NCBI RefSeq assembly: GCF_019453995.1
Contig: NZ_CP075587.1
Span: 1,426,001 to 1,490,000, forward strand
Direction of reading: 5' to 3'
DNA from: Candidatus Rhabdochlamydia oedothoracis
GTDB taxonomy: Bacteria; Chlamydiota; Chlamydiia; Chlamydiales; Rhabdochlamydiaceae
Length of the DNA: 64,000 bases
Below are positions 11,453-47,116 of this stretch, piece by piece; the first letter of the stretch is position 1; every line of letters begins with the position of its first letter. The position numbers and the translations under genes were made by a program. Below the pieces are notes generated by a model. The model had not been told where the DNA came from and did not search any database. It worked only from the letters and a program-made list of their open reading frames with translations.

Positions 11453-11590
11453 TATACTCGTTTACATTCAAATTAAGAAGTTGAATATATAAACATTTTT
11501 ATAAAAAGAATAACCTATTCTTGCAAGATAGAGCAGCTTTTTCAAAAAAACTCAGTTATGCAATTCTTAATTTGAAAGAAAACTAGTGTA
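11453..11590. mobile_element. MITE-like palindromic element, family 1 (TA target), between nlpD and ftsW
   Basis: A roughly 137-bp element has inverted ends: left TATACTCGTTTACATTCAAA, right (reverse complement) TACACTAGTTTTCTTTCAAA. In both arms the shared TTCAAATTAAGAA core continues inward. The ends carry TA, as in Tc1/mariner- or IS630-type elements. A second full copy is at 30042-30179, with partial copies at 25516-25564 and 46564-46673. It has no coding capacity. One end abuts the nlpD stop codon (11591-11593) and the other lies 27 nt before the ftsW start. Confidence 0.85.
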
Positions 11591-12226
11591 TTAACGAATA
11601 CGCAATTTATCCCCAGGTCGTAGTTTTCGAGCTTTTTCCTCGCTCATCTCATTTAGATTCAAAAGAATTTCTAGCTTAATATTATTTTTCTTTGCAATAA
11701 TCGAAGGATTATCTCCTTCTTTTACAATATAGTATTGGGTTGTCTCTTCCAAAACAGGGCTTGCGGTATGATTAGAAGGAATTTTCAGAATCTGGCCAAT
11801 ACGCAAATGAGATGTTTGCAACCCATTTAGTCGCATAATTTCATGAACCGTAGTATGATGTTGGCGAGCAATTTTTTCCAACATATCCCCTTTTTTGATA
11901 GTAACCTCTTGTCCAGCTAGTTTTTCCGTTTTATTTTCCAAAATAGCAACTTGCCTAGGTTCTCCTGCAATAACAGGATTTTGGATGACTACAGGTTGTT
12001 CTACAGTATTTAAGCGTTGCTTTGCAAATTGTTCTAAAGCGTGATCTACAGCATCTCCTTTTTGAATAACTACTTCCTTTTTAGGAGAACCATCTACAAT
12101 AGGCTTCAATGGTTCTGGCTGATAGCACGTATTATGCATATGTGGCTTTAGGGCGCTGGCAAATAAAATAATTAATAAACCTGCATTAACCAATACAGCA
12201 ATAATAATGGTATCTTTACGACTCAT
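11591..12226 (-). CDS. nlpD: LysM-domain membrane protein (NlpD-like, no peptidase domain)
   Basis: The 211-aa protein has an N-terminal membrane anchor (about residues 7-27) and two LysM peptidoglycan-binding repeats. The first, near 108-150, reads VTIKKGDMLEKIARQHHTT then LRIGQILKIPS. The second, near 165-211, reads YYIVKEGDNPSIIAKKNN then LRPGDKLRIR. Its place between murD and ftsW matches the chlamydial gene called nlpD. It lacks the M23/LytM domain of enterobacterial NlpD, so a hydrolase-activating role is not supported; wall binding at the division site is the reasonable inference. The start lies 5 nt after murD. Confidence 0.85.
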   Translation of the reverse strand: MSRKDTIIIAVLVNAGLLIILFASALKPHMHNTCYQPEPLKPIVDGSPKKEVVIQKGDAVDHALEQFAKQRLNTVEQPVVIQNPVIAGEPRQVAILENKTEKLAGQEVTIKKGDMLEKIARQHHTTVHEIMRLNGLQTSHLRIGQILKIPSNHTASPVLEETTQYYIVKEGDNPSIIAKKNNIKLEILLNLNEMSEEKARKLRPGDKLRIR

Positions 12227-24464: not shown

Positions 24465-25402
24465 TATAGTTATTTAAATCGACATTGATAAAACAGCTTG
24501 ATCTAAGGCTTCGGATAAATTAGCTACAGTAGGTAAAAGTTCTCGGATTTTCGTTTTCATATTGGCCCAATATTTTTCGATAGGATTTAAGTCCGGTGAA
24601 TAAGGCGGGAGAAAGAGCATTTCGTATCCACTTTCCTCTATCAATGTTCTAGTTGTCTTTGATTTATGAAAGCTCGCGTTATCGAGAATCAAAACTTGGC
24701 CATGAGTCAAATTTGGAATCAATTCCTGTTTTAGCCATACATTAAATAGATCCGTATTGCAAGTTCCTTCAAAACACATCGGTGCCAGCAATTTCTTCCC
24801 TTGTAGTGCCGAAATTACACTCTGTCTACCAAATCGTTTTCCTGAAATTCCTCCAAATATTTGTTTTCCCCTCGCGCTCCTCGCATATTGCCTATGCACA
24901 TATTGACTGATTCCGCTCTGATCCAAATAGACCCTTTTTTCAGGAGAAATTGCTTCTATCTTTTTTAGATATTCCGCTCTTGCTTCCGCATTCCTTTCCT
25001 TATAAAACGCAATCTTTTTTTTCTTGTGATCTTGAGTCTTTTCAAAGCGTAAAAGATTGCTTGCAAAGTCAAACCAAAATGCTTTGCAATCTCTGATAAA
25101 AAATGATCGGGGTTTTTTTCTACATAAGCGATTAATCTCTGATCATCAATTTTCTTATAAGTGCTTTTCTTTTTTAGAGGTTCTACGTTTCCTCTTTGTT
25201 TCTTACGCTTTACCCATCGGTAGACAGTTGCAATCCCAACTTGAAATAGCTGGCTGGCCTTCATTTTGTCGTTATTTTCTTCTAGGTATTGAAGCACTCG
25301 TTTTCTTAGATCCATTGAATAAGGTTTAGGCATTTCTCTACCTCCATATATTTTGTTGGAGAAAAATATACAACTTTATCAATAATATTTTAAATAACTA
25401 TA
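24465..25402 (-). mobile_element. IS630-family insertion sequence (type 1)
   Basis: About 938 bp bounded by inverted TATAGTTATTTAAA ends with TA at the borders, as expected for IS630/Tc1-type target duplication. It carries a transposase on the minus strand in two frames. A fragment of the same type is at 18399-18617. Confidence 0.88.
24474..25333 (-). pseudogene. IS630-family transposase, split by a frameshift
   Basis: The upstream frame (25333-24965, 122 aa) has two HTH units: MPKPYSMDLRKRVLQYLEEN and FQVGIATVYRWVKRKKQRGN. The downstream frame (24926-24474) has LDQSGISQYV (first Asp), HGQVLILDNASFHKSK (second Asp) and FLPPYSPDLNPIEKYWANMK (Glu). The catalytic triad is therefore present but in another frame. 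Programmed frameshifting is known in some IS630 elements; simple decay is the alternative. Confidence 0.82.
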
Positions 25403-25515: not shown

Positions 25516-25564
25516 TATACTCGTTTGCATTCAAATTAAGAGTTTGAATGTATAAACATTTTTC
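25516..25564. mobile_element. Truncated MITE, family 1
   Basis: TATACTCGTTTGCATTCAAA and the following 25 nt match the left end of the element at 11453-11590. The other end is missing, replaced by an inverted IS5-like fragment. Confidence 0.75.
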
Positions 25565-25784
25565 TATCCACGCAAAAGAACGCTCTACAACCCCTTCTTG
25601 AGAAATACACTTCATACTTTTACAGTTATTCCTAGAAAATGGGTTGTAGAGCGTTCTTTTGCGTGGATAGAAAAATGTCGCAGGCTATAGAAAAATTGCG
25701 AAAGAAAACTACATACAAGCCTGAATATGGTGGTTCTCGCTTTTATCGCTCTACTTTTGAAAAGATTTTAAACAGGATCTTAGA
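25563..25784. mobile_element. IS5-like (type 2) fragments in fold-back arrangement
   Basis: 25563-25591 is an inverted piece of the IS5-like transposase 3' region, followed at about 25600-25784 by the same region in plus orientation, ending AAAAGATTTTAAACAGG. The two arms are nearly perfect inverse complements of about 29 nt and could form a strong hairpin. There is no coding capacity. Confidence 0.7.
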
Positions 25785-29781: not shown

Positions 29782-29784
29782 ATC

Positions 29785-30041
29785 TTACTTCTTTAAACTC
29801 AAAGGTCCTGATCCAAAATGCGTAATTAGTAAAGCAGCGCCTAAATAAAGCGGCATTTTTCATAAACATCACTTGCTGCATGTCATGCATCATGAGATTT
29901 GAAATCGTCCAAAATTTATGCATCATATAAGTAAACAGGAACTAAAAAGATCACTAATAACCAAGCTCCGTAACGCGCTTTATAACCTAAAAGGATACTT
30001 AATCCCCCTACAAGAGCTAATAGTCCTGAAAAAGGAACAAG
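29785..30041 (-). pseudogene. DoxX-family membrane protein, broken by a MITE and frameshifts
   Basis: On the minus strand three frames together read LVPFSGLLALVGGLSILLGY, then WTISNLMMHDMQQVMFMKN, then LYLGAALLITHFGSGPLSL, the C-terminal two thirds of a DoxX quinol-oxidase-like protein. Two frameshifts separate the blocks. The upstream end is cut exactly by the MITE at 30042-30179, and beyond it the matching N-terminal half is not readable. Confidence 0.8.
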
Positions 30042-30179
30042 TATACTAGTTTGGCTTCAAATTAAGAATTTGAACCATATAAAAATCTTTAAGCAAAGAA
30101 CAATACCTTATATGAAGGTAAAGAGATTTTTTTCAAAATACCAAGAATGTAATCCTTAATTTGAAATTAAACTAGTATA
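30042..30179. mobile_element. MITE-like palindromic element, family 1, second full copy
   Basis: 138 bp with inverted ends TATACTAGTTTGGCTTCAAA (left) and TATACTAGTTTAATTTCAAA (right, reverse complement), TA at both borders and no coding capacity. It interrupts the DoxX pseudogene. 30180-30366 shows no gene that I can support. Confidence 0.88.
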
Positions 30180-34495: not shown

Positions 34496-35474
34496 TATAG
34501 TAGTGCCGATTCAAACGGCTAGCTTAATGGGATTTAAGTCAACGACTTGAAACTTGTCGTTAATCCTACATTTCAAAACATCTGTTATTTTCGGTATCTC
34601 TTCTAAGAAGAATCCTCTAATTGCCTGAAAAAAAGTCACCGACGTTTCGTAATATCGATTTTATACCGTCTTTTCCTTTAAGATCTTCCACAAGCGTTCA
34701 ATAGGATTCAAATTCGGCGAATAAGGAGGGAGATAGTGCACTTTAATCCTAGAAGACATCAGAAACTCTTCTAGTTTCTTATTTTTGTTTGATCTCGCAT
34801 TATCCAAAATTACATGAATAATTCGAGCCTCTGTCTGTTTTTCTAGCTTCTTGAAAAAATCGAGCATTGCATCGGCATCAACTGTCTTATATTCCTCTGT
34901 AAAAATCTTCATTCCTATCAGGCAAAATCAGGGTTTAAGGTCTCCTTTAAAGCCATATATTGTTCTATGAAAATTCGTTGTTTTTCAGGATCTAATTTCC
35001 CAGGAATCTTTTTAGGACGTTTATAAGCAAATCCGTGCTGTATTAGCCAATCTGTCATGCCACTTCGGGAATATTTTATCCCATATTGCTCATGCACATA
35101 AGCTATGATCCCTTTGACTTTAAGATAGGTCTTTTCCCTGTAGGTGTTTTAGTAGAGACTCTGTTTGGTCTTGTGAAAGTTTTGATTTGCTACCGCCTCG
35201 AGGGCTACTTCCAGTTTTATTTTCGGAATCATATTCTCTGAGGTATTCCTGAACAGTGATAGGACTTATCCGGAGTGTTTTAGCAAGATTTTTTGTTGAG
35301 ATACCCTCATCATAGCCCAAAATTACACAAAGCCTATTCCGTTCAGAATAGTCTTTTGGATGCTTTAACTTGTGTTCTAAGTCAGCTCTCTGGCTAGGGG
35401 TCAGTTTTTTCATACTCAATAGCTTAACACAAAACAAAATATTTTTCTATACGATTGAATCGGAACCACTATAT
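34496..35474 (-). mobile_element. IS630-family insertion sequence (type 2), degraded
   Basis: About 979 bp bounded by imperfect inverted ends TATAGTAGTGCCGATTCAA and TATAGTGGTTCCGATTCAA. The transposase is on the minus strand in broken frames. Related copies: the window-end copy from 63524, a deletion derivative at 51706-52055 and a tail at 17421-17523. Confidence 0.85.
34661..35437 (-). pseudogene. IS630-family (type 2) transposase, broken
   Basis: The N-terminal frame (35437-35120) has the HTH region MKKLTPSQRADLEHKLKHPK and NLAKTLRISPITVQEYLREY. One extra G near 35130, compared with the intact frame at 63584-64000, shifts it out of frame. The C-terminal frame (34912-34661) keeps IIHVILDNARSNKNKKLEEF and YLPPYSPNLNPIERLWKILK, the second Asp and Glu of the DDE triad. 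The copy is inactive. Confidence 0.85.
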
Positions 35475-46145: not shown

Positions 46146-47116
46146 GAGCCTGTTTAAAATCTTTTCAGTAAGGCATAATGATAGTTTTCATAAAACCTTT
46201 GGAGGTAATTATGACCCGCTCTTATCCAAGCGATATCTCGCGTAACCAATTTAGCAAAATCCATCTAATACTTGAGTCTACACGCAAAAAAACACGTCCA
46301 CGAATAGTTAATCTATATGATATTTTTTGTCGGGTTTTGTACATTTTAAAAAGTGGTTGCCGGTGGCGTATGTTACCCATAGAATATCCTAAATGGGAAT
46401 GATGTGATTATTATTTCCCTCTTTGGAATAAAAAAGATCATAAAAATTCTAAGAGTATTCTTGAAATAGTTTTAAAAAAAATTAGTTGGCGAGGTCAGAA
46501 AAAGCAGTGGTCGGAAAGAGAAAACAAGCTTTGTAATTATTGATGCTCAAAGTGTTAAAAACATTGCATAACTGGGTTTTTTGAAAAAACTGCTCTATCT
46601 TGCAAGAAGATGTTATCCTTTGTATAAAAATGTTTATACATTCAACCTCTTAATTTGAATGCAAACGAGTATACAGTGGAGAAGATAAGGACATGATGCA
46701 GGGAAAAAAATATCAGGAATAAAAAGACATATAGCAGTCGATACCCAAGGGCTTCCTCATGCGATTCACATTACCACCGCTAATATCACTGACAGAAATG
46801 GGTGTATAGAAGCATTTTCACTACATAAAAACCATTTTTTCGGTGTAAAAAATGTTTTAGCAGATAGAGGATATTCTGGAGAAAGATTTGCAAAGAGTGC
46901 GCAGGAAATATTAGGATGTATAGTAGAAATAGCCAAAAGAAATGCACTTCATACTTTTACAGTTATTCCTAGAAGATGGGTTGTAGAGCGTTCTTTTGCG
47001 TGGATAGAAAAATGTCGCAGGCTATGGAAAAATTGCGAAAGATAAATACATACAAGCCTGAATATGGTGGTTCTTGCTTTTATTGCTCTACTTTTGAAAA
47101 GATTTTAAACAGGCTC
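46146..47116 (+). mobile_element. IS5-like insertion sequence (type 2), copy interrupted by a MITE fragment
   Basis: 971 bp with GAGCCTGTTTAAAATCTTTT ends and a TAA duplication on both sides. Its transposase has stop codons (for example TGA at 46400) and about 110 bp of family-1 MITE inserted after the SVKN codons (46564-46673), which accounts for the extra length over the 866-bp copy. Confidence 0.9.
46564..46673. mobile_element. Partial MITE, family 1, inside the IS5-like copy
   Basis: Reverse-oriented match to 11453-11555, ending in CAAACGAGTATA. The other terminal repeat, about 27 bp, is missing. Confidence 0.85.

Follow-up and report, generated by a model that had tools for sequence, protein, structure and literature searches.

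Candidatus Rhabdochlamydia oedothoracis carries a family of short repeats that are genuine miniature mobile elements (MITEs), present in dozens of copies. A 343-aa DD34E transposase of the IS630 type, encoded elsewhere in the same genome, very probably mobilises them in trans by an insertion that duplicates a TA. The analysis centred on a window of 64,000 nucleotides (G000:C1:1426001-1490000) and drew on five sister genomes of the same genus (G001-G005).

Copies, subfamilies and empty sites

The MITE unit is 134 bp long, multicopy and non-coding with 26-bp inverted termini; no open reading frame of 80 aa or more was found wholly within the element. A genome-wide search with the 26-bp terminus (TAYACTMGTTTNCNTTCAAATTAAGA) returned 135 matches at three or fewer mismatches, against none for a reversed-pattern control. 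Among the matches listed are at least about 44 distinct full or near-full elements. Subfamily A is represented there by at least about 40 full copies, most of them 86-97% identical to the window copy at 11453, and subfamily B by at least five (96-98% identity), including the window copy at 30042. The two subfamilies are about 75% identical to each other. Copies also occur on a 38.9-kb second contig, the chromosome itself being 1.879 Mb. A search of a plasmid collection gave no match, and an Rfam scan of the window returned tRNAs only. The shorter 13-bp core was ruled out as a diagnostic marker, since its 14 matches at two or fewer mismatches approximate the 13.9 expected in the AT-rich window and are not significant alone.

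Within the window, full copies of the form TA-134 bp-TA lie on the + strand at 11453..11590 (subfamily A) and 30042..30179 (subfamily B). Partial copies of subfamily A are found at 25516..25566 (+; the left about 50 bp) and 46564..46673 (-; the left about 110 bp, without the right terminus). The preliminary description had reported two TA-bordered full copies and two partial ones at these places and had classed them as MITEs. All four are present, and the class assignment is borne out by the size, copy number, non-coding character and 26-bp inverted termini of the elements and by the TA duplication seen at empty sites. Its reading of the copies as states of decay does not hold for the two full ones, which represent two subfamilies. 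The partial copies both end against IS5-like sequence and so seem to have been cut short by an inserting IS or by rearrangement, not by gradual decay.

The element at 11453 is absent from all five sister genomes, and the pre-insertion sequence CGTTAA-TA-GCTTTTG is kept in G001 and G002. When its flanks are joined they match a stretch of G001 (L165) at 38 of 38 positions with exactly one TA, so the unit reads TA + 134 bp + TA and its insertion duplicates the TA. The site of a further copy (L010) is empty in four sister genomes, again with one TA, and that of a MITE in G003 (L124) is empty in another species, G004. Clean TA empty sites were obtained for about nine copies in total, subfamily B included, for the most part within paralogous repeats of this genome; for one MITE of G002, a search of other genomes with the joined flanks gave no match across the junction. 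Three copies (L007, L009 and L010) are identical and lie at unrelated sites, which suggests recent movement, and we infer that the family is still active. The L010 copy lies close to the 3' end of an apparent gene that the sister genomes share.

The copy at 30042 marks the break in a DoxX-family gene, so that at least one MITE copy is found in a broken gene. The remnant (29782..30041, -; Pfam DoxX E 2.1e-10, with its translation compared with the L169 open reading frame) ends at the insertion and is also frameshifted; the gene is intact in the sister species G004. The left junction, ACAAG-TATA, is also found in sister genomes (L169 and L171) that lack the element there. It is the only side open to comparison, the right flank being unlike that of the sister genomes and apparently rearranged.

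Some arrangements of the repeats are more complex. In L022 (1368-1639) a MITE of subfamily B adjoins one of subfamily A, with TATA common to both; one has inserted at the other's terminus. The two flanks of the L007 and L137 copies apparently come from two different ISs, which suggests that MITE copies have recombined with one another and that the genome has been rearranged. Related termini in L042, L043, L122 and L135, most of them followed by AATTTATAA, enclose different interiors and possibly represent another non-autonomous family. The termini of L042, L043 and L135 (TATACTAATCTTATTTC... and TATACTAGTTTGATTTCAAATTAAGAATTTATAAA) were considered as those of a second IS; this was rejected, as no transposase open reading frame was found beside them in L043 or L135.

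IS630-type transposases and the candidate driver

The window contains two IS630 types: remnants at 34661..35437 (-) with ends TATAGTGGTTCCGATTC and Pfam DDE_3 and HTH domains, and another type at 24474..25333 (-) with ends TATAGTTATTTAAA. The ends of both match those of MITE A at 15-16 of 26 positions, and neither type is the best-matching driver. The preliminary description was right that these ends differ from those of the MITE, and right to suspect, from the TA borders, an IS630/Tc1-type transposase. It had called the driver unknown; there is now a strong candidate elsewhere in the genome, a third IS630 type whose 3' end matches the MITE termini. A relative of the 24474..25333 type interrupts a MITE A copy in L136.

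The candidate driver is an IS630-type element of 1138 bp including both TAs, located outside the window. Its copies were found by tracing termini that had no MITE partner, and the transposase gene ends inside the terminus TATACTCGTTTGTTTTTAAATTAAGA. The 343-aa transposase (gene at G000:C1:370108-371136) is intact in two copies, has the DD34E triad D175, D255 and E290, and carries the domains of the IS630 family (Pfam DDE_3, E 1.2e-30, with HTH domains). A third long copy, L064, encodes 333 aa; the first catalytic motif was looked for in it and not found. The 3' end of the element, TATACTCGTTTGTTTTTAAATTAAGA, agrees with the MITE termini at 20-25 of 26 positions, whatever the subfamily or species (background 7.4, s.d. 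2.2). The 5' end, TATACTGAAATGCATTAGAAAAAAGA, matches at 14-18 of 26, so the correspondence is to one end of the IS. The MITE has in it a co-resident autonomous element that matches through its 3' end and weakly through its 5' end. One copy, L063, sits at a TA in IS5-like sequence and its empty site, GGCTATTTCTACTATACATCC, occurs exactly elsewhere, which indicates that the IS obeys the same TA rule as the MITE.

We propose that the transposase recognises the MITE terminus as TATACT-N8-TTYAAATTAAGA and, acting in trans, would insert the MITE at a TA that is duplicated in the process. The distribution of the MITE terminus speaks for this model: among 48 genomes sampled, it is present in four of the six that belong to the genus and in 0 of the remaining 42. 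Transposases closely related to the candidate (about 60% or more identical) turned up in that sample solely within the genus, and the relatives carrying the transposase are chlamydial. The sister genome G004 encodes a transposase 70% identical to the candidate; no MITE termini were found in that genome. We count this against the proposed driver, along with the match to one IS end and the interior homology to the IS, which is modest for subfamily A and was not detected for B.

Two other accounts of the repeats have to be weighed against mobilisation by the 343-aa enzyme. The MITE might be moved mainly by a more abundant IS630 type with a 355-aa transposase and ends TATAGTGGTTCCGATTCAA, via cross-recognition. 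That type, with dozens of intact copies in the genome, is likewise flanked by TA; its ends and those of the MITE agree at 15-16 of 26 positions, above the background of 7.4. This match is far weaker than the 20-25 of 26 seen for the candidate driver, and the inner motif AAATTAAGA is missing from the ends of the 355-aa type, so we regard it as an unlikely main driver, though it may still act on the MITE by cross-mobilisation. The repeats could also be regulatory or RNA elements, such as mRNA hairpins or terminators, kept for their function and not mobile. In favour of this, their strands fold better than shuffles (z -3.7 for subfamily A and -5.2 for B), and the 11453 copy lies within a cell-wall gene cluster read in one direction, directly after the stop codon of a LysM gene (11591-12226, -) and upstream of ftsW (-). 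The foldback, however, follows from the inverted termini. Conservation of position across species, which the preliminary description had named as the evidence that would favour such a role, is not seen: positions vary, and the 11453 and L010 sites are empty in sister species. Several copies are located within transposase genes or other genes, and in most copies both arms retain the same mismatches (CTCG vs CTAG). A functional, immobile role therefore appears highly improbable, and the MITE reading is retained in what follows.

Origin of the MITE and IS1111-type insertion at its terminus

Both MITE termini resemble the IS 3' end, which suggests the birth of the MITE from one end of the IS, the 3' end being followed by an inverted copy of itself. 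The MITE interiors of G003 and G005 show clear colinear homology to the IS 3' end (Z 4-10 vs shuffles), sharing its orientation and register. The subfamily A interior is also colinear with it, at a weaker signal with nhmmer E values of 0.02-0.7, a level that one unrelated window stretch equals, and the subfamily B interior gave no homology signal against the IS. Colinearity extends up to the inner border of the far terminus. The IS sequence at that point is TTCTTAA, identical to the inner border of the inverted terminus, and an inverted 3' terminus may therefore have been attached there through this short identity.

MITEs are usually explained by internal deletion, and an ordinary deletion within an IS630 whose ends were once more similar would be compatible with the same driver. 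The IS 5' end does have TATACT, TT and AAGA in common with the MITE termini. However, in every subfamily the 3' end is the better match to both MITE ends, the 5' motif TTAGAAAAAAGA is present in IS copies of the genus and absent from the MITEs, and the 3' colinearity running up to TTCTTAA at the far terminus is at odds with such a deletion. We view this origin as possible but rather doubtful.

The MITE terminus, whichever way it arose, is itself a target. An IS110/IS1111-type element of about 1.5 kb, with subterminal inverted repeats and the Pfam domains Transposase_20 and DEDD_Tnp_IS110, has its 3' end joined exactly to the MITE/IS630 terminus (TATA/element/CTCGTTT) in 15 of 31 recognised copies. 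Of these 15 targets, eight are IS630 3' ends and seven belong to MITEs; every one is of the 3' type (CTCG or CTTA), and no CTAG terminus is among them. Copies at TATA/CTCG include L150, L151, L152, L154 and L155 (G000:C1, near 952664, 856003, 253198, 436529 and 263276, respectively). The element on the MITE terminus provides a natural setting in which RNA-guided choice of target could be tested, and a guide complementary to TATACTCG, if present, would fit its targeting of the terminus. In L155, the left non-coding part of the element includes ATATAAACGAGA, which contains the complement of CTCGTTT; it is possibly a guide, though the match could be due to chance.

Returning to an origin from one IS end, we tentatively put forward the following combined scheme. 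A stretch of about 115 bp from the IS 3' end, transposase codons included, would have gained an inverted terminus at TTCTTAA to yield the MITE. The MITE would then dock a presumably RNA-guided IS1111-type element that discriminates TATA/CTCG from TATA/CTAG, giving a three-tier chain of parasites.

Relation to known elements

By analogy, the family most likely belongs with the known RUP-like, IS630-driven MITEs. RUP of pneumococcus is 107 bp long, occurs in about 100 copies, targets TA and has termini like those of the co-resident IS630-Spn1 (PMC2229807). The RUP/IS630-Spn1 pair is the nearest analogue, in that the repeat is short, targets TA, has termini like those of a co-resident IS630 element and inserts in other ISs. 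Set against the RUP properties given in PMC2229807, the Rhabdochlamydia family differs in its 26-bp termini, its host in the Chlamydiota, its empty sites and an interior homologous to one IS end. Correia/NEMIS elements of Neisseria (107-155 bp, with terminal inverted repeats of about 24 bp, terminal TA and empty sites; PMC2229807) resemble it by description in size, inverted repeats, TA termini and empty sites, but that source names no matching transposase for Correia.

The IS1111-type insertions also have counterparts. QMITE2 of Coxiella burnetii is a MITE that serves as an IS1111 hot spot (PMC5896051), as here and likewise in an intracellular bacterium; there the repeats are variable direct repeats of 7-11 nt and the target is a REP, whereas the Rhabdochlamydia insertions hit the MITE/IS630 terminus and the duplication is of TA. 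IS4321 and IS5075, of the IS1111 family, are described as inserting in the terminal inverted repeats of the Tn21 family (Partridge and Hall 2003, as cited in PMC11187229). On the terms of that citation they share with the present element the IS1111 type, subterminal inverted repeats and insertion into the terminal inverted repeats of another transposon, and they differ in having a Tn21-family target where ours is an IS630/MITE terminus.

No description of MITEs in Chlamydiae or Parachlamydia was found in the literature searched, and the words MITE and IS630 are absent from the main text of the Rhabdochlamydia genome paper. A count of 415 transposase genes has been published for Candidatus Rhabdochlamydia oedothoracis (PMC9723776). 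Since the published account of IS-driven genome reduction counts transposase genes, without MITEs in its main text, the family adds dozens of mobile copies that were not counted. As the genus includes genomes with and without the element, the birth, spread and loss of the MITE can be traced through clean empty sites.
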